Program-made: the position numbers and the translations under genes
Part shown: one piece after another, positions 1,021 to 12,267 of the stretch
How the letters are laid out: every line of letters begins with the position of its first letter
Position numbering within the stretch: the first letter of the stretch is position 1
Source of the DNA: Bryobacterales bacterium
Lineage (GTDB): Bacteria > Acidobacteriota > Terriglobia > Bryobacterales > UBA6623
DNA length: 64,000 bases
Direction of reading: 5' to 3'
NCBI GenBank assembly: GCA_028819255.1
Contig: JAPPMB010000015.1
Span: 1-64,000 of the forward strand
Notes under the pieces: generated by a model
Told to the model about the DNA's origin: nothing
Database searches by the model: none
What the model saw: the letters and a program-made list of their open reading frames with translations, nothing else

Positions 1021-4000
1021 ATGGGCACCACCGAAGCCGAACGGACGGCGCAATCGGAGAATTCCTCACATAAGGGTCTGATCGCCTACTTCGCGGGCAA
1101 TCCCGTGGCCGCCAATTTGCTCATGCTGCTCTGCATCGTCGGAGGCGTCGTTTCCGGGTTTCAGCTCGCAGTTCAGAATTATCCCGACCTCGATCTGCGA
1201 TTAATTGGCGTGACCGTGCGTGCACCGGGCTCGTCTGCGCAAGAGGTGGAGCAGGACATCAACCGGCGCGTAGAGGAGAGTGTGATCGGTCTGGCGGGGG
1301 TCGAGCGCGTCGTAGCAACCGCAACCCAGGATCTGGGCCGGATCGAAATCGAAATGGCCACGTTCGCGGATTCCGGTACGGTGCTGCGAGATGTCCAGAG
1401 TGCGGTGGACAGCATCGAGAACTTTCCGCCGTTGAACGCGGAGCGCCCGGAGGTCAATCTCCTCCAGCTGGATCTCGAGGTCATGACATTGGCGGTGACC
1501 TCCTCGCTGGCCGGCGAGGATGCGCTGAGGCGCGCAGCCGAAGACGTGCGAAGCGAACTGCTGGAATTGCCGTCGATTTCTCAGGTGAAGCTGGCAGGCA
1601 CGCGCGATCGTGAGATCTCGATAGAGGTGAGCGAGGAGGAGTTGCGCCGCAACGATCTCTCTATCTCTCAGATCGCCAACACGGTCCAGCGTGCCTCCCT
1701 GAACCTGACGTTCGGGGAGCTGCGCACGGACTCAGGCGGCGTCGTCCTGCACACCGTCGGCAAGCGCAGCATAGGTAAGGAGTTCGAGGGCATTCCGCTC
1801 ATCACCCGCCTCGACGGCACCAACGTCACGCTTGGCGACGTGGCCGAAATCCGGGACGCCTTCGCCGACGAAGACGTTGTCTCGAGAGTCAACGGCAAGC
1901 CCGCGGTGTTCGTCCGGGTCGAAGCCACAGAACGCCAGTCGGTTGTCGACATGGCGGAAGACATCAAGAATTGGCTGGCTGCCTACGAGCCACCCCGCGA
2001 CGTGTTGGTCACTGTCTGGACCGACACGGCGGAGGGGGCCATTGCCAGGCAGTCGGGAATTCTGAGGAACGCAGTGATCGGGACGGTCCTGGTCTTCGTG
2101 CTGCTCCTCCTGGTGTTCGACCTTCGCGCCGCGGTGTGGATAACTCTCGGAATCCCGTTTTCCTTCGCCGCCGCCCTGGTCTTCTTCGAGCCAGCCAATC
2201 TCACGTTGAACCTCGGGACGATGATCGCGTTCTTCCTCATGGTCGGCCTCGTCGTGGACGACGCTTTGGTGGTCGGAGAGAGCATCGCCGCGGAACGGGA
2301 GAGAGGCAGGAGCGCATTGGATGCGGCCGTAGCCGGCGTCAGAGCGGTAGCGAGTCCGATAACCATCGGCGCATGCACGACGATCCTTGCGTTCGTACCG
2401 TTCCTCTTCGTTACCGCGCCTGCCTATCAGCTGGTGAATGTCTTTCCGTTTGTGGCGCTGTTCGTCCTGGCCGTTTCGCTCGTCGAGGCCTTCCTCATCC
2501 TGCCCGCCCATCTCTCGTATGAGGGCCGCTGGAGTTTGCAACCGTTGCGCACACTCCAAGCCGGAGTGGGCGTCTGGCTCGACGGTGTCCGCGAGCGGAC
2601 TGTGGTGCCGGCGGTGTCCTGGTCCGTGCGACATGTCGGCACGACTCTCATTATCGGAGCGGCGCTGGTTCTGTTCTCCCTCCTGTTGGTGCGAACGGAG
2701 ATGGTTCGCGTCATCTTGCTCGACGAGCAGATGAACGTGCCCAACAGCGTTCAAGTCAACCTGCAACTCCCGGTTGGGACGCCATTCCAGACCACCCTGG
2801 CCGCGGCGGAGGATGCTGTGGACGCAGCCTACGCGATGAACGAACAACTGCCAGGGGAGTCGATCAATGGGGTCAGCATCCTCGTCGGAAATCTCGCGTC
2901 TTCGCGATCCACCGGAGCCGACCCGAGAGGCAGCCATTTGGCCTCAGTGAGGGCTCACCTCAACGAGCGGCCAGCCCGTCGTGCGGCTCCGGCAGAGATC
3001 GAACGGACTTGGCGATCGGCGATCGGCGATGTGTCACATCTGGAGAGGATCGAGTTCCAGAGCGCGGTGATCCGGACCAGGCCCACTGTCGCGTATGCGT
3101 TGAAGCACGATGATCCGGAGACCCTGGCGAAGGCTGCGTCGGAGATGAAGTCGTTCCTGGCGACGGTTCCGGGTGTTTTTCAGATCTCCGACAGCCTTGC
3201 TTCGGGAAAGCGGCATCTCCAGATCGGACTCACGCCAGCCGGGGAAGCCGCGGGACTGACTCCAGCTGCAATCGGACTGCAGTTGCGCGCCAACTTTCAC
3301 GGCATCGAGGCCCAGCGGATTCAGCGCGGCCACGAAGAGGTCAAGGTCATGGTCCGGTACCCCCGCGAGCGACGGCGGAACCTCGGCGAGCTCGCTGGTG
3401 AGCGCATTCGCCGCGTCGGCGGAGGGGAAGTGCCGCTGCACACGGTGGCGACCCTCAACGAGGAGCGCGAGCCAGCCACGTTGACACGTGTCGACGGAAG
3501 GCCTGCCGGAATGGTATATGCGCGGGCCGACTCGGCGGTTGTCACGCCCATTCAGGCGCGCCGAAGGGTCGACCAGGAGTTCATTCCTGCGCTGCTCGAG
3601 CAGTTTCCCGACCTCCAGGTCGAACCCGAGGGCGGGGTGCGGGACGAGCGAGCCATGATGGAGACGCTTGGCCTCCTGGTCCCCGTCGTGCTGATTGGGA
3701 TGTACGCACTCATGGCCGCGTTTCTCCGAAGTTACTGGAAGCCCCTGGTGGCCGTCGCTGGTTTTCCGCTCGCCTTCGCCGGCGCGATCCTTGGGCACTG
3801 GGTGCTCGGATGGGACTTGACGGCGATGTCGTTGTTCGGAATCATCGCTGTATTCGGGGTCGTCGTCAACGATGCTCTGGTTCTGCTAGACCGATACAAC
3901 TCGATCCGCCTCGAGCTTCCGATGATGCCCGCGATTGCCGCGGCGGCGACGGCGACTCGTCTCCGCTTCCGGGCGGTGTTTCTGACGAGCGCGACCACGC

Positions 4001-4617: not shown

Positions 4618-4927
4618 GTGAAGGAATCCAGTGATTCCATGTCCCTGGGCAGTGGCAATGACTCCGCGATCGTGAACTCGTCGTCCCCCGGCGCAATGAC
4701 GATGCCCGCGCCCAATCCACATCTGGGGGGACAACCGGAAGCTAATCCTCATACGGGAGGCAGGCTCGTTCGTGAAGCGCAGGGCCACTTCCGAGATCCC
4801 GGCATCTTTCATTCTCGATGGGTGATAGTATGACTCGAACAGGAAGCACGACGCGCGGCCTGCCGCCGCCGGCCCGCTTCCCGTGCCTTCGTGGCCCGGA
4901 TCCTCGGCCTCGGGATCCAGCTGGCCG
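4618..4927 (-). pseudogene. Decayed copy of the cytochrome c/PHM-like monooxygenase gene
   Basis: On the minus strand this stretch translates to FLFESYYHPS...SEVALRFTNEPASR, closely matching FLFESHFHPS...SEIALYFTDEPASR of the intact gene at 5331-6719. At DNA level 4618-4850 aligns to about 5735-5970, and 4850-4925 to about 6006-6115, so two internal blocks are deleted. The reading frame shifts near 4735, after which the match continues in another frame. One histidine of the HxH copper motif is replaced by Tyr (YYHP). The N-terminal cytochrome part and the C-terminal Met-containing part are not detectable. It is a tandem duplicate in decay, same orientation as the intact gene and about 0.4 kb downstream of its stop. 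Confidence 0.82.
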
Positions 4928-5330
4928 AAACGGCCTGAGGGAGAACGGCCAGGCGTTCTGGTGCGCGGGCCCGCACTCTTGGCGGCGCAGACTGAGCACC
5001 GGTCGAGAATCAATTGGGGGGCCGGTCTGTGTCGGGCAGCCGCGGACGCCGGCCGGACTTGACCACAGTGTGGTCGGCGGCTGGTTGCGGGTAACGAGGC
5101 GGCGAAACTGACTTCCCCGTAGCGCCGGCAGCAGACCATTGAGTTCCGGACTCGTGTCCCCGTCGCGAGGCGAAGATCACGCGGACGCGCTCAGCGCATC
5201 CCACCGAGGATCAATGACGCGGAGGCGCACTCCGGGCCGAACACCGCACCTGGACCGCCTGGAGCCTGCTCGGCTCGGCTTCCGCGGCCGAGGGTGCAGC
5301 GGACCGCTCGCGACGGGCCGCGGGGAAATC
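4928..5330. other. Intergenic, no recognisable gene
   Basis: Spacer between the stop of the intact copper monooxygenase gene and its decayed copy. Open frames here have no family motif and read as noncoding high-GC DNA. No clear terminator hairpin was found by eye. Confidence 0.5.
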
Positions 5331-6719
5331 CTATCGGCCCGGCCGAACCCTGCGCCGAGTCGGAACCGAACTCAGATACTGCCGTATCAGTCCGTTATGT
5401 TTCCTTCGGAGCTTGGCCAGCTCTTCGCTAATGGCGGGCACATCCGACTCGTTCACCGGCATTGCCGTAAAGATCACGGAACCCATTTCGTCCGTGGACC
5501 CGCGGCCCCAGAGGACCCGCTTCGGAGGCGCGGTCGGATTCCGTGGATTCTCGGCCGAGTTGTCGTACCGAATGCGGGCGTGGATGGTTGCTCCCGCGGG
5601 AAGGGCCACAGGCTCCTCATAGACATACATGTCCTGCCATGCGAAATCCCAGTCCTTGATCCAGATGAGCGGGATCTCCGCTCCGCCGGGCGCCTCTGCC
5701 CAGGCCTTGAATTCCTTCGCAATGTAGTGGGCGTGGGGTGTCACGCCGAAGAGTTCCATGTCTGCAGGCAGTGTGAATGACTCCCCGATCGTGAACTGGT
5801 CGTCTCCCGGCTGGATGTCGATGCCCGCGCCCAATCCGTACCTGGGGGGCAGCTGGAAGACCACCCTCGTGCGGGAGGCAGGCTCGTCCGTGAAGTACAA
5901 GGCTATTTCCGAGACCTCGGTCTCTTCCTTTCCCGATGGGTGGAAGTGTGACTCGAACAGGAAGTCGCTGCCGGCCGGCACAAGGATCTGGCATCCGGGC
6001 GGCATGACGCGCGTACTGCCGCCGACGGCCCATCCGCCGAGGGCGATCCGGCCCGGGACCGCGCCGCTTCCCATGCCTCCGTAGCCCGGCTCCTCGTCCT
6101 CGGCATCCAGCCGGCGCGCACGGCCTGTGGGATCTGCCTTGAAGAGGCTGTGATGCACCACGCTTCGCACAAGGGGCCTGAACTGGTACGCCCGGAGCCA
6201 CCTGTCCTCCGCCGTCGGGATCCGTGCCGGGAAGTTCCGATAGATGTCCGGGCCGTCCGCCGGAATCGTGTACGGCTCCTCCATCTTGACGACCACATCG
6301 GGCTCGCCCAGGATCCAGTCCGAGGAAAACTCCGGGGGTTCCGGGGAGGCCCCTCTTCCCTCGGGCGCCCCGGCTTCGACCCAGATTGCGATCTGAGCGA
6401 TTTCCGAGTCGCTCATGTGGCGCTCGCCCTTGAATGAACCGTATCCGGGTTCGGCGTGCCAGGGAGGCATGTATCGGGACTGGGTCACTGCGCCGATCAG
6501 CTGGGCGCGCTTGGCGACATCCTCGTACGTCAGGAGCGAGAACGGAGCGGCTTGGCCGGGCCGGTGACATGAGGCGCATCGCTCGTGAAGGATGCGCGCA
6601 ACGTGTGTGTTGAAGGTGATGCTTCCGCCTGCCGACCGCTCTGCAGCCTCCAGCGCAATGCCTGCAATCAGGATCAGGGCACCCCAGAAGGCGTTGAAGA
6701 GGGAAACCGGGATTCTCAA
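5331..6719 (-). CDS. Cytochrome c domain fused to PHM-like copper monooxygenase
   Basis: Predicted exported redox enzyme, 462 residues. A hydrophobic signal at about residues 7-24 is followed by a heme-c motif (C48-A-S-C51-H52) in a short cytochrome domain, then a domain resembling copper type II ascorbate-dependent monooxygenases. The expected copper ligands are visible: paired His 189-190, a third His at 258 or 260 (HFHP), HxH at 329/331 (PHAHY) and a late Met at 412 (TDEM). This pattern matches the two mononuclear copper sites of the PHM/DBH family; the substrate is unknown. It starts with TTG at 6719 and overlaps the stop of the redoxin gene upstream by 4 nt, so the two are translationally coupled. 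A decayed paralogue lies downstream. Confidence 0.85.
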   Translation of the reverse strand: MRIPVSLFNAFWGALILIAGIALEAAERSAGGSITFNTHVARILHERCASCHRPGQAAPFSLLTYEDVAKRAQLIGAVTQSRYMPPWHAEPGYGSFKGERHMSDSEIAQIAIWVEAGAPEGRGASPEPPEFSSDWILGEPDVVVKMEEPYTIPADGPDIYRNFPARIPTAEDRWLRAYQFRPLVRSVVHHSLFKADPTGRARRLDAEDEEPGYGGMGSGAVPGRIALGGWAVGGSTRVMPPGCQILVPAGSDFLFESHFHPSGKEETEVSEIALYFTDEPASRTRVVFQLPPRYGLGAGIDIQPGDDQFTIGESFTLPADMELFGVTPHAHYIAKEFKAWAEAPGGAEIPLIWIKDWDFAWQDMYVYEEPVALPAGATIHARIRYDNSAENPRNPTAPPKRVLWGRGSTDEMGSVIFTAMPVNESDVPAISEELAKLRRKHNGLIRQYLSSVPTRRRVRPGR

Positions 6720-7390
6720 TTCAACCCTCCTCGCTGGATCACGTCCAGCGACGGGATATAGCAGCCGACGGCCTTCGCACGCGGCCGGGAGACTTGCTTG
6801 GCGGACAGGACTTCGTCCAGCGCGTCCCGCAGATCGCTCACCGTTGCCCTTCGCCGGGGCGTCCCAAGTGCGGCGTACAGATTGTCGATTCTCCCCAGAT
6901 AGACCAGCTCGCCGGTCTCATTGAAGAGCGCCGATTCCGGGGTGACAGTGGCATCTGCCAAGCGGACCAGCTCATGGTCGACATCGTGGATCGCCGGTTG
7001 GGATCCGCCGTACTGACGCAGGTGCTCCCGGATCTCTTCGGTGCCGACCGTGGGATCCACGTAGGCGACCAGGCATCTCACACCCCTAGGCTCGTAGTCA
7101 TGGCAGATTCTTCGGATTTCCGGAGCGTACCTGTTCGAGATCGGGCAGTCATGTGTGACGAAGTACAGCACGGTGGCTTTGAAGCCCGGCTTCAACGGCA
7201 CGGTGTGGATGTGACCGTCGATGTCTCGCAGGCTCGTCGAAGCGAGCGATGCGGACACCAAAAGCACGACGGGCAGGCACAGCCGCACACCCCGAATCAG
7301 GCTCGCCGCGGCGGCGACGTTGGCGGTTTTCGCATCCCTTGGAGGGGGTTGCTTCGCTTCCTGCAGCATTTCAGGCGGAACCACGTCCAC
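6716..7390 (-). CDS. Membrane-anchored thioredoxin-like redoxin (AhpC/TSA type) with a single active-site Cys
   Basis: Protein of 224 residues with an uncleaved or cleaved hydrophobic segment at about 33-50 and a thioredoxin-fold domain outside the cytoplasm. The active-site strand reads THDCPISNRYAPE: one Cys (82), not CxxC, at the place of a peroxidatic or copper-binding Cys. The cis-Pro turn is TP near 150. The C-terminal end carries a second conserved-looking Cys (210) in AVGCYIPSL. Such redoxins commonly sit beside cytochrome/monooxygenase fusions in Acidobacteria, as here with a 4-nt overlap. Roles in delivering electrons or copper to the partner are inference. The start is GTG at 7390; ATG at 7369 is an alternative. 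Confidence 0.8.
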   Translation of the reverse strand: MDVVPPEMLQEAKQPPPRDAKTANVAAAASLIRGVRLCLPVVLLVSASLASTSLRDIDGHIHTVPLKPGFKATVLYFVTHDCPISNRYAPEIRRICHDYEPRGVRCLVAYVDPTVGTEEIREHLRQYGGSQPAIHDVDHELVRLADATVTPESALFNETGELVYLGRIDNLYAALGTPRRRATVSDLRDALDEVLSAKQVSRPRAKAVGCYIPSLDVIQRGGLN

Positions 7391-8215: not shown

Positions 8216-10843
8216 GTGTCTGGGCTCTTGCGTGCAGCCGTCTTCGTACTCGCTCTGGCCTCCGTGTCTCCGGCGGCGCCGAGCGGAGAGCAACTCTTCC
8301 TGAACACCGTCCAGCCGACTCTCAAGCAGAAGTGTCTTGGGTGTCATGGTGAAGGCAACACCTTTGGCAAGCTCGACCTCCGCTCCCGTGGTTCGGCCCT
8401 CCAAGGCGGCCAGCGAGGGCCGGCAATCGTAAGCGGCGACCCCGGCGCGAGCCTGCTGATGCAGGCGATCGACCACGTCGGCGAACTGCAGATGCCCCCG
8501 GGCGGGGAAGAGAACCGGCTGCCTGAGACCGTTCGCGGGGCGTTTCGCGACTGGATCGCGGAAGGAGCGCCGTATGCGGCCGGCAGCTCTGCCGCGAAAT
8601 GGGACTTCGATGAGGCCGATCTGTGGGCATTCCGTCCGGTCCGCACGATCGATCCCCCACGGAACGGGGTGAACCTGCACTCGGTCCGCACGCCCGTCGA
8701 CAACTTCATCCTCGCCAAGCTCGCGGAGAACGGCATTGAGGCGGCGCCGCGGGCGGACAGGCGCACGCTGATTCGACGCCTCACGTTTGACCTGACCGGT
8801 TTGCCGCCGACGCCCGAGGAAGTCGACGCGTTCCTGGCCGACGATTCCGACAGCGCCTACAAGGTGCTCGTCGAGCGCCTGCTGGAGTCGCCCCGGTACG
8901 GCGAACGGTGGGGCCGCCACTGGCTCGACGTCACGCGCTACGCCGACACGGCGGGGTACTCGAACGACTTCGAACTGCCGAACGCGTGGCGCTATCGGGA
9001 CTACGTGATCCGCAGCTTCAACCGGGACAAGCCGTACGACCAGTTCGTGCTGGAACAGATTGCCGGGGACGAACTCTTCCCCGAGGATCCCGACGCGATC
9101 ATCGCGACCGGCTTTCTCCGCACAGGTCCGTGGGAGCACACTGGCATGGCTGTGGCGGGGGTGACCAGACAGCTGTTCCTCGATGACGTGACGCATCACG
9201 TCGGGCAGTCGTTTCTCGGACTGACGCTGGGCTGCGCCCGCTGCCACGACCACAAGTTTGACCCGATTCCGACCAGGGACTACTACCGCATGCAGGCCGT
9301 GTTCGCACGCACGGCGTTCGCGAGGCGGCCCCTGCCGTTCCTGCCGTCCGAATCGACCGAAGGCTTCGACTTGGGCCGCAAGCCATTCGACGCCCGGATC
9401 GTCGAACTCGAGCGGCGCATGCACGACCTGCACGAAGCGGCCCGGCAGCGTCTGGCCGAGGCCAAGGGAGCGGAGTACGCCGCCGGCGCCGCAAGCAACA
9501 TTCTGCAGCGGCACATGGACAAGGAGCAGGCGGAACTCCTGAAGCTGCTGCGCAAGCGCGCCTCGATGCACAAGCTCTCGAAGCTGCGCTTCGAACCGCT
9601 GGCCATGACCGTCTCGAACGGGCTCGATCCCGACTGGGATGTCGTCGCCTCGCGCAACAGCTACCTCAAGGCCAGCGACTACGACACCGCCAGGACGTTC
9701 GTGCTCGTGGGCGGCGACATCCAGGCCCCGTCCGACGAGGTCTTCCCCGGCACGCTGGAGGCCGTGGAACGCTACTCGGACCTGGCTTCCCGTCCGGTTC
9801 CGGCCACGTCGGAAGCCAGGCGGTCGGCTCTCGCGAAGTGGATTGCGGACCCTCGCAATCCACTGACCGCGCGGGTCATGGTGAATCGGATCTGGCAGTA
9901 TCACTTCGGCCAGGGGCTGGCCGCGAACCCGAACAATTTCGGAAAGACGGGAAAGAAGCCCACCCACCCGGAGCTGCTGGACTGGCTTGCCGCGTTCTTT
10001 GTCGAGCAGGGCTGGAGCGTGAAGGCGGTCCATCGCGTGATCCTGTTTTCGGAGGCATACCGGCGCGCCGCCGAGCACCCTGACCGCGACACGCTCGACA
10101 ACAAGGATCCCCGGAACTCCCTGCTCGCCCGCTTCTCGCCACGCCGCCTGGAGGCGGAGGAGCTGCGGGACAGCATGATCGCGGTCGCGGGCGAGCTCAG
10201 CGATCTGGCCGGCGGCCCGGGCACCTATCCCCAGATCAATTCGGACGTGGCCCGTCAACCCCGGCACGCCATGGGAACGCTGCGACCGGTCTATGAGGCC
10301 GAGCCCGTCAGAAGGCGCCGAAACCGGCGCTCGGTCTACAGCTTCCAGCAGCGGAGCCTCCTGGACCCGATGGTGGAGGTCTTCAACGGTGCGAATCCAG
10401 ACCTGACCTGCGAACGTCGCGAGTCGTCCACGGTTCCGACCCAGGCCTTCGCGCTGCTGAACTCGGAGCAGTCCCGCGACATGGCCATGATCATGGCTCA
10501 CCGCATCGCCGGGGAGTCTGCCTCCGACGTGGTCGGGGGGGCGTTCCGTCTCGCCTACGCCCGGCATCCGTCGGCCGAGGAGCGCGGATGGTCGACTGGA
10601 TTCCTCGAGCGCATGACGGCGCACCACCGGCGGAACCCGGCCCGTCCCCGCCAGCCCCCCGATGACATCGTGCATCACATCACGAGCGAGCTGACCGGCG
10701 AACGTTTCGAGTTCGTCCAGCCCGCCTACTCAGGTCCCTACGAGGACAACCCGCACCCAAGCGAGGCCGCGCCCGAGACGCGCGCCCTGGCGGACCTGGC
10801 CTTGGCTCTGCTCAACTCCAATGAATTCGTGTACGTGTATTGA
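8216..10843 (+). CDS. PSD1 protein: PSCyt1 cytochrome + DUF1549 + DUF1553 (pair 1)
   Basis: Large exported protein of 875 residues. A signal peptide (about 1-20) precedes a PSCyt1-type heme motif (C40-L-G-C43-H44), then DUF1549 from about residue 155 (TPVDNFILAKL, FDLTGLPPTP, PRYGERWGRHWLD) with a second heme-c-like motif [11 protein letters not shown] near 341. DUF1553 follows, with [18 protein letters not shown] and PTHPELLDWLA; the end reads LLNSNEFVYVY. The GTG at 8216 has a GGGGA Shine-Dalgarno about 9 nt upstream. It is followed after 2 nt by the DUF1501 gene. PSD1/DUF1501 pairs are widespread in Planctomycetota and Acidobacteriota with no proven reaction; periplasmic or surface electron transfer coupled to polymer breakdown is a common guess. 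Confidence 0.92.
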   Translation: MSGLLRAAVFVLALASVSPAAPSGEQLFLNTVQPTLKQKCLGCHGEGNTFGKLDLRSRGSALQGGQRGPAIVSGDPGASLLMQAIDHVGELQMPPGGEENRLPETVRGAFRDWIAEGAPYAAGSSAAKWDFDEADLWAFRPVRTIDPPRNGVNLHSVRTPVDNFILAKLAENGIEAAPRADRRTLIRRLTFDLTGLPPTPEEVDAFLADDSDSAYKVLVERLLESPRYGERWGRHWLDVTRYADTAGYSNDFELPNAWRYRDYVIRSFNRDKPYDQFVLEQIAGDELFPEDPDAIIATGFLRTGPWEHTGMAVAGVTRQLFLDDVTHHVGQSFLGLTLGCARCHDHKFDPIPTRDYYRMQAVFARTAFARRPLPFLPSESTEGFDLGRKPFDARIVELERRMHDLHEAARQRLAEAKGAEYAAGAASNILQRHMDKEQAELLKLLRKRASMHKLSKLRFEPLAMTVSNGLDPDWDVVASRNSYLKASDYDTARTFVLVGGDIQAPSDEVFPGTLEAVERYSDLASRPVPATSEARRSALAKWIADPRNPLTARVMVNRIWQYHFGQGLAANPNNFGKTGKKPTHPELLDWLAAFFVEQGWSVKAVHRVILFSEAYRRAAEHPDRDTLDNKDPRNSLLARFSPRRLEAEELRDSMIAVAGELSDLAGGPGTYPQINSDVARQPRHAMGTLRPVYEAEPVRRRRNRRSVYSFQQRSLLDPMVEVFNGANPDLTCERRESSTVPTQAFALLNSEQSRDMAMIMAHRIAGESASDVVGGAFRLAYARHPSAEERGWSTGFLERMTAHHRRNPARPRQPPDDIVHHITSELTGERFEFVQPAYSGPYEDNPHPSEAAPETRALADLALALLNSNEFVYVY

Positions 10844-10845
10844 GC

Positions 10846-12267
10846 ATGAAACGCCAAGTAGTCACAGCGACGCCCTCCCGAAGGGAGTTCCTCTACCACT
10901 CGGGCATGGGGCTCGGGGCCATTGCCCTCTCGGCGCTGCTGCAGGGCGACCGCGCTTCGGCCAGCCCCCTCGCGCCGAAGCGCCGCCACCACGCCGCCAA
11001 GGCCAGGAGCTGCATCTTCCTGCTCATGGAAGGGGGGCCGAGCCACATTGACACGTTCGATCCGAAGCCCAAGCTTGCGGACCTGCACCTGACGGAGTTC
11101 GTCAAGGAGCGGAACAGGTTCGAGGCGAGCATGAACACCGGGAAGCGGTATTTCGTACGCAGCCCCTTCGCGTTCCGGCGCGCCGGCCAGCTGGGCATCG
11201 AGATCAACGCCAAGCTGCGCAATTTCGCAGACTGCGTCGACGATGTCTGCTTCTATCGGGGCCTGCAGGCGACTTCGGTGAATCATCCCACCGCCCTTTA
11301 CCATCTCAACACCGGGAACCGATTCGGGGGCGACCCGGCGATGGGCTCCTGGGTGACCTACGGGCTCGGGACCGAGAACGAGAACCTGCCGGGATTCGTG
11401 GTCCTCCCGGATCTCGCGTACCCGCAGGGCGGGGCAGGCAACTGGTCGAACGGCTTCCTGCCGGCGCACTATCAGGGCACGCCGCTCAGGTCGCAGGGCT
11501 CGCCCGTGCTGGACATGAGCCCTCCCGGCTACGTCACCGAGACGCAGCAGCGCGAGACGCTGGACCTCCTCGGCCAGCTGAACCGCAGTCACATGCGGCG
11601 TCATCCGCGCCACGACGAGCTTTCAGCCCGCATTGCGAGCTACGAGCTGGCATTCCGCATGCAGGCCGAGATGCCCGAGGCGATCGACATCGATTCGGAG
11701 CCTCAGTCCACCAGGGACCTCTATGGCGTCGGCTCGAACGATTCCGAGGTGGATTCGATCGGTCGCCGCTGCCTGCTCGCCCGTCGTCTGGTCGAGAGGG
11801 GCGTCCGCTTCGTCCAGGTGATCGTCTCGGGATGGGATTCCCACGACTACATCGAGAAGGCGCACGGTTCGCGTCTCGACGCGATCGACCGGCCCATGGC
11901 CGGACTCCTCAAGGATCTCAAGCGGACCGGGCTGCTCGATGAGACGCTGGTCGTATGGGCAGGCGAGTTCGGGCGCTCGCCGGACAACGGCATCCGGGGT
12001 GGAGGCACGGCGTGGGGGCGCGATCACAACGCTCCGGCCATGCCGTTCTGGATGGCCGGCGGCAACGCCCACCGCGGACGAATCGTCGGCGCGACTGAAG
12101 AGACCGGCCGGTCAGCCGTCGAGGTCGTGCATCCCATTCAGAACATGCATGTGACACTGCTGCACCTGCTCGGTCTCGATGACGCAAGACTCACGTATTT
12201 CGCGCAGGGCCGCGACAAGCAGCTGAGCCAGACCGGCGGGGAGCTCATCAGGGAGCTGGTGAAGTAG
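10846..12267 (+). CDS. DUF1501 protein (pair 1)
   Basis: 473-residue DUF1501 member with a twin-arginine-like leader (SRREFLYHSGMGLGAIAL) pointing to Tat export. Family landmarks include GGPSHIDTFDPKP near the N-terminus, [27 protein letters not shown] and a GRDHN segment. DUF1501 is distantly related to the alkaline-phosphatase/sulfatase fold, but no reaction is established. The ATG at 10846 is chosen over an in-frame TTG at 10840 because the latter would overlap the stop of the preceding PSD1 gene and adds only two residues. The 2-nt spacing to that gene indicates co-translation and a joint role. Confidence 0.92.
   Translation: MKRQVVTATPSRREFLYHSGMGLGAIALSALLQGDRASASPLAPKRRHHAAKARSCIFLLMEGGPSHIDTFDPKPKLADLHLTEFVKERNRFEASMNTGKRYFVRSPFAFRRAGQLGIEINAKLRNFADCVDDVCFYRGLQATSVNHPTALYHLNTGNRFGGDPAMGSWVTYGLGTENENLPGFVVLPDLAYPQGGAGNWSNGFLPAHYQGTPLRSQGSPVLDMSPPGYVTETQQRETLDLLGQLNRSHMRRHPRHDELSARIASYELAFRMQAEMPEAIDIDSEPQSTRDLYGVGSNDSEVDSIGRRCLLARRLVERGVRFVQVIVSGWDSHDYIEKAHGSRLDAIDRPMAGLLKDLKRTGLLDETLVVWAGEFGRSPDNGIRGGGTAWGRDHNAPAMPFWMAGGNAHRGRIVGATEETGRSAVEVVHPIQNMHVTLLHLLGLDDARLTYFAQGRDKQLSQTGGELIRELVK

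Follow-up and report, generated by a model that had tools for sequence, protein, structure and literature searches.

A predicted PHM/DBH-type copper protein with a cytochrome c domain in the same chain and a paired redoxin in Bryobacterales and other bacteria

Two overlapping genes in the window (the whole stretch of 64,000 nucleotides that was analysed, from a Bryobacterales bacterium) encode a redoxin and a protein that combines a cytochrome c domain with a predicted PHM/DBH-type copper core in one chain, hereafter the cytochrome-PHM protein. Its membership in the PHM/DBH superfamily is well supported by the predicted fold and by the aligned copper ligands, and its pairing with the redoxin is real. 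We consider it probable that the protein acts in the periplasm as a PHM/DBH-type copper monooxygenase whose electron donor is the c-type heme of the same chain instead of ascorbate.

Organization of the gene pair

The features of the locus are summarized in Table 1. On the minus strand, the redoxin gene (7390-6716) is followed by the cytochrome-PHM gene (6719-5331); both reading frames, and their 4-nt overlap, lie where the sequence-only reading had placed them. The GTG start of the redoxin gene is doubtful, because the signal peptide of some orthologues starts later. Promoter and terminator scans gave nothing notable above shuffled sequences, and the plasmid search yielded no match. Chance as an explanation for the gene-pair observation is excluded because of the residue conservation and the fold match described below.

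Table 1. Features of the redoxin/cytochrome-PHM locus and its surroundings
Feature	Positions	Strand	Remarks
Putative cytochrome c/PHM-like copper monooxygenase gene	5331..6719	minus	462 aa, TTG start; open reading frame and relatives
Redoxin gene	6716..7390	minus	224 aa, GTG start; thioredoxin fold, CPIS motif
Stop/start overlap TTGA	6716..6719	minus	4 nt
Shine-Dalgarno-like GAGGAGGG	6725-6732	minus	5 nt ahead of TTG, within the end of the redoxin gene
N-terminal hydrophobic helix, probable Sec signal peptide (residues 1-30)	6630..6719	minus	helix 5-29 in the model; presumed signal function
Cytochrome c domain (residues 33-122)	6354..6623	minus	Cytochrome_CBB3 match in 28 of 33 aligned members
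Heme attachment motif C48-A-S-C51-H52	6564..6578	minus	33/33 members and 84/84 copies
M84 (MPPW), probable heme axial ligand	6468..6470	minus	33/33 and 84/84; presumed ligand role
Predicted PHM/DBH-type double jelly-roll core (residues 138-421)	5457..6308	minus	fold and profile match
H189-H190, predicted CuH ligands	6150..6155	minus	aligned to the PHM His-His pair; 84/84
H258, predicted third CuH ligand	5946..5948	minus	aligned to the His of PHM LQVHY; 83/83 uncut
H329-A-H331, predicted CuM ligands	5727..5735	minus	aligned to PHM H-T-H; 83/83 uncut
M412 in (S/T)xEM, probable CuM Met ligand	5484..5486	minus	33/33; 82/82 uncut; Cu2_monoox_C match ends here
Redoxin C82, single active-site Cys (CxxS)	7145..7147	minus	20/20; 48/48 uncut
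Redoxin C210, C-terminal Cys	6761..6763	minus	near-invariant; 49/49; also in PDB 2ywi, 3u5r and 2cvb
Decayed second copper-domain copy	4635..4944	minus	residues 196-322, two frames, 40-75% identity (tblastn)
PSCyt1/DUF1549/DUF1553 protein and DUF1501 protein	8216-12267	plus	divergent from the redoxin/cytochrome-PHM unit

The decayed copy, in which Tyr occupies the position of H258, lies just downstream of the cytochrome-PHM gene, and this gene was therefore probably once duplicated in tandem. In the relatives compared, the orthologues are not flanked by the PSCyt1/DUF1501 gene pair. In six of the 11 relatives with wider flanks (L129-L134, sister species), the unit lies near conserved open reading frames of 769, 592-596, and 449-462 aa, which are absent beside the copy at 5331-7390.

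Predicted fold and relation to PHM and DBH

The AlphaFold2 model of the 462-residue protein had a mean pLDDT of 89.6 and a pTM of 0.83. Foldseek matched this model to DBH and PHM with E-values of 5.5e-13 and 1.3e-11, respectively. VIA gave Z-scores of 21.0 for human DBH and 20.3 for rat PHM; its top 26 rows were all DBH or PHM (Z 21.0 to 16.2), and the next unrelated structure scored 6.9. Structure prediction of the large protein thus found the PHM/DBH fold.

In sequence searches, public libraries matched the parts of the unit weakly. The 462-residue protein alone fell below the Pfam cut-offs for every domain, with 19.7 bits for Cytochrome_CBB3 (cut-off 27) and 14 bits for Cu2_monoox_C (PF03712; cut-off 23), whereas two paralogues from the same genome, L003 and L002, exceeded the Cu2_monoox_C cut-off. 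Among 33 aligned members of the family, matches at an E-value of 0.01 were obtained for Cytochrome_CBB3 in 28, for Cu2_monoox_C in 11, and for Cu2_monooxygen (PF01082) in four. A phmmer search of the PDB with L003 retrieved PHM only at an E-value of 0.0045, ranked beneath some de novo designed proteins. The profile built from the 33-member alignment (A2), searched against PDB sequences, retrieved rat PHM at 1e-6 and human DBH at 1e-4 and aligned His on His for five copper ligands of PHM.

Rat PHM (1phm, 1opm, and 1sdw) and the cytochrome-PHM protein would share the double jelly-roll core, the His-His...His arrangement of the CuH site, and the His-x-His...Met arrangement of the CuM site. The two proteins are only about 17% identical, and the one studied here differs from PHM in being bacterial, in having an N-terminal cytochrome c domain and a redoxin partner, and in lacking a lyase domain. 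DBH (4zel), the best fold match, is 14% identical and likewise carries an extra domain N-terminal to its copper core, which is a DOMON domain in DBH and a c-type heme domain here. A disulfide-rich copper core is a feature of the animal PHM/DBH enzymes. This feature is missing here: C243 is the sole Cys of the 462-residue protein outside the heme motif, and there can therefore be no disulfides in the copper core.

Conservation of the heme and copper residues

Conservation was assessed in the 33-member alignment and in a scan of species genomes, which confirmed 553 relatives; the best 80 loci were kept and contained 84 copies of the gene. Copies not broken off by a contig end were regarded as uncut. 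C48, C51, H52, M84, H189, H190, H258, H329, H331, and M412 were invariant in the alignment, and the heme and copper residues were unchanged in every uncut copy among the 84. The scan was seeded with the patterns WDFxWQ[DG]xY and CHR[PA]G[EQ][AV][AG]P, so that C51/H52 and W361/Q362 owe part of their conservation to the search itself; these patterns include neither M84 nor the copper ligands. All residue numbers of the sequence-only reading (the above except M84, together with H260 and redoxin C82 and C210) are correct, and its interpretation is supported in part: a PHM-like copper core beside a heme-c motif in one chain agrees with the predicted fold, the ligand alignment, and the conservation.

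M84, the probable Met ligand of the heme, had been missed in that reading. With it, the protein has both the CxxCH motif (C48, C51, and H52) and the distal Met of a class I cytochrome c, each conserved in 33/33 members and 84/84 copies. From these residues and the copper ligands, we infer the heme and metal content of the protein.

Sequence alignment to PHM gives the positions of five of the six copper ligands. For M412, the invariance, the location where the Pfam match ends, and the (S/T)xEM context, which we take to be that of PHM, make a role as the CuM ligand probable; a profile of the C-terminal part only, used to place M412 on PHM, retrieved no PDB match. The earlier assignment of copper ligands holds for H189, H190, H258, H329, and H331, and probably for M412, all of which are invariant, but not for H260, which had been proposed as part of an HxH pair with H258. 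H260 was variable in the 33 relatives, was His in only 55 of the 84 copies, and is not matched by a His in PHM, whose single His at the third CuH position aligned with H258 in the profile alignment. The second site of that assignment is therefore one His, not HxH, and by this alignment the CuH site is the three-His arrangement of PHM.

Such conservation bears on whether the protein is an evolutionary remnant, or binds copper and heme with no catalytic function. A decayed copy does adjoin the gene, and one paralogue locus encodes a cytochrome domain with a jelly-roll remnant devoid of copper ligands, but the ligands were invariant in all uncut copies examined, and we regard this reading as very unlikely.

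Distribution of the cytochrome-PHM family

The genome of origin encodes four full-length members of the family. Two of these paralogues show additions to the same heme-copper unit, namely C-terminal TPR repeats in L002 and a long extra N-terminal region in L003. In another contig of this genome (C22), a 238-aa protein (L004, positions 2782-3498, plus strand) is encoded directly after another full family member; it consists of a cytochrome c domain of the same type and a short jelly-roll-like remnant without copper ligands.

Members were found in 49 of 61 related genomes, the genome of origin included, with at least 18 matches in the richest genome; in a sample of 199 genomes spanning the phylum, 41 had members. 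Acidobacteriota of the Bryobacterales/Terriglobia kind are among the named relatives that matched best, and the 80 loci kept from the scan come from records named Acidobacteria, Planctomycetota, Verrucomicrobiota, Armatimonadetes, Myxococcales, Latescibacterota, and others. Among 59 same-strand neighbouring open reading frames, chosen by a crude length rule and cut to 380 aa where long, no Pfam family occurred in more than two, and the flanks thus gave no hint of a substrate.

In the phylum sample, 148 of the 150 matches listed (both counted by eye) begin before the heme motif, no later than position 25 of the profile. In this phylum, the heme domain is therefore coupled to the copper core. 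Together with the invariant Met, this suggests that the function of the heme is tied to the copper core and argues against an alternative in which the copper core is real and the heme serves as a sensor, as a structural element, or as an electron drain in the oxidase direction, with a small molecule or the redoxin as the donor. The redoxin is indeed a second candidate donor, being fused to the protein in 11 of 80 loci, and we consider a non-donor heme unlikely.

Properties of the redoxin

The sequence-only reading had described one active-site Cys (C82) and a C-terminal Cys (C210) in the redoxin, and both proved to be family-wide (48/48 uncut and 49/49, respectively). The position of the second Cys of a CxxC motif, residue 85, was Ser in 25, Ala in 20, and Cys in three of 48 sequences. 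The redoxin profile (A3) retrieved the solved structures 2ywi, 3u5r, and 2cvb with E-values of 1.7e-25, 5.5e-23, and 5.3e-15, respectively, followed by ResA as a distant match (6.8e-8). The redoxin shares with 2ywi, 3u5r, and 2cvb/2ywo a thioredoxin fold with one Cys-Pro cysteine and a C-terminal Gly-Cys, and presumably belongs with them to the PRX_like1 kind. It differs from 2ywi, 3u5r, and 2cvb in H123, which those proteins lack; this residue was invariant in 20 sequences but was His in only 40 of 49 PHM-linked redoxins and was rejected as an invariant residue. None of these structurally solved proteins is known to us to work with a copper enzyme.

Other identities were considered and rejected. 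ResA and TlpA have the thioredoxin fold in common with the redoxin, but 45 of 48 redoxins have CxxS or CxxA (CPIS here) in place of CxxC, and an extra C-terminal Cys is present. Classical peroxiredoxins have the peroxidatic motif PxxxTxxC; the sequence up to C82, LYFVTHDC, is without Pro at -7. Sco copper chaperones bind copper through CxxxC, which is absent from C82-P-I-S-N86. The redoxin is also unlikely to be the disulfide maker of the cytochrome-PHM protein, because that partner has only one Cys beyond its heme motif.

Linkage and fusion of the redoxin with the cytochrome-PHM protein

The redoxin gene is directly upstream of the cytochrome-PHM gene in all ten sister species. Among the 80 loci (best 80 of 553 relatives), the redoxin was fused to the cytochrome-PHM protein in 11, encoded in the same locus in 38, and absent from the locus DNA in 31, four of which (L074, L077, L085, and L094) had less than 600 bases of upstream sequence. 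Each fusion was one open frame, with the redoxin first in ten and last in one, and 37 of the 38 same-locus redoxins shared the strand of the cytochrome-PHM gene and lay no more than 900 bases from it. The operon arrangement and the natural fusions corroborate the proposal of a dedicated redoxin partner. The natural three-domain fusion L068 (677 aa) was predicted with a pLDDT of 90.0 and a pTM of 0.85, and this model suggests that its three domains may be packed into a single arrangement.

Linkage states were mapped on a quick-method LG+G4 tree of 98 rows (the 80 scan loci, the protein encoded at 5331-6719, and 17 hand-chosen others), in which support was below 80% for 28 of the 95 inner branches. 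On this tree, the arrangement (fused, upstream, downstream, or none) takes 31-34 changes, and the fusion state alone takes at least five changes on well-supported branches; the link has therefore been repeatedly kept or remade. An adjacent redoxin is not strictly required, because the redoxin is missing from the locus DNA in 31 of the 80 loci and is encoded elsewhere in the genome in a family-level relative (G014).

As a control, redoxins of this kind were counted in the 61 related genomes: most encode one or two, none more than three, and three genomes encode none. In the matches listed, 35 redoxins reached at least 149 bits, and 27 of them had a PHM-family match no more than about 1.4 kb away, whereas none of the 65 lower-scoring matches lay beside one; these counts were made by eye, with a profile built from linked redoxins, which biases toward that result. 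In the same comparison, the high-scoring redoxin was absent from all 12 genomes without a PHM-family match. An incidental adjacency would fit the 31 loci without a neighbouring redoxin, but it is set against the 11 fusions, on either side of the protein in different lineages, and against the lower-scoring paralogue that is never adjacent in the matches listed, and is highly improbable.

A role of the redoxin in maturation only, either loading copper or reducing the CxxC of the apocytochrome, after which the assembled enzyme would work without it, deserves more weight. Thioredoxin-fold proteins of the ResA, TlpA, and Sco kinds serve such roles, ResA is among the distant matches, and the 31 loci without an adjacent redoxin fit this explanation. 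Arguing against it are the ResA-type CxxC, missing in most of these redoxins, and the repeated fusion in one chain, which would be unusual for a transient chaperone. We regard restriction to maturation, like a role in copper or heme maturation in general, as possible but tentative.

Proposed mechanism

PHM and DBH are textbook ascorbate-driven animal enzymes, whose products are amidated peptides and noradrenaline, and how electrons cross between their coppers has long been debated. A PHM-type core needs two electrons per turnover, which come from ascorbate in animals. In the mechanism proposed here, both proteins would be exported, since each begins with a hydrophobic stretch. Electrons from a respiratory or periplasmic pool would enter at the heme (H52/M84), a one-electron donor in the place of ascorbate, and would pass to CuH (H189, H190, and H258) and then to CuM (H329, H331, and M412), where O2 would be activated and a C-H bond of the substrate hydroxylated.

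The C82/C210 pair of the redoxin would most likely act in the enzyme's own cycle or in metal loading and not on enzyme disulfides, because only C243 lies outside the heme motif. Participation in the catalytic cycle is quite conceivable, though short of probable, and is slightly preferred over maturation because fusion recurs. Handling of a peroxide or a thiol substrate by the redoxin seems somewhat doubtful.

A wider proposal may also be put forward, with considerable reserve. These proteins may constitute self-sufficient bacterial copper monooxygenases of several phyla, in which the fused heme c feeds the PHM-type dicopper core, and the Cys...Cys pair of a tethered or operonic redoxin joins the turnover as a second-electron donor or as a copper/thiol gate. 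The animal PHM/DBH enzymes might even have their bacterial root in these proteins.

Novelty and implications

Open-access full text was the only literature covered, and no paper on a bacterial heme-PHM-redoxin unit was found there. A 2020 review of metalloproteins assigns PHM and DBM to eukaryotes alone (PMC7435645), and a 2022 paper describes PHM proteins as widespread among eukaryotes (PMC8812541). The sequence-only reading had spoken of a new biochemical unit. Such a claim is too strong for one locus, because the same heme-PHM-redoxin unit occurs in many bacterial phyla; its novelty stands to the extent that this literature holds no description of the unit. The heme-fused PHM-type protein with its redoxin is widespread in little-studied bacteria, with no experimental work on it found in open-access full text.

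If the proposed reading is true, a large bacterial branch with a heme-wired copper core and a redoxin would provide a tractable system in which to study electron delivery and might offer a view of the origin of the PHM/DBH family. Many environmental bacteria carry several copies, with at least 18 matches in one genome, and unknown oxidation chemistry may therefore be at stake in these organisms.
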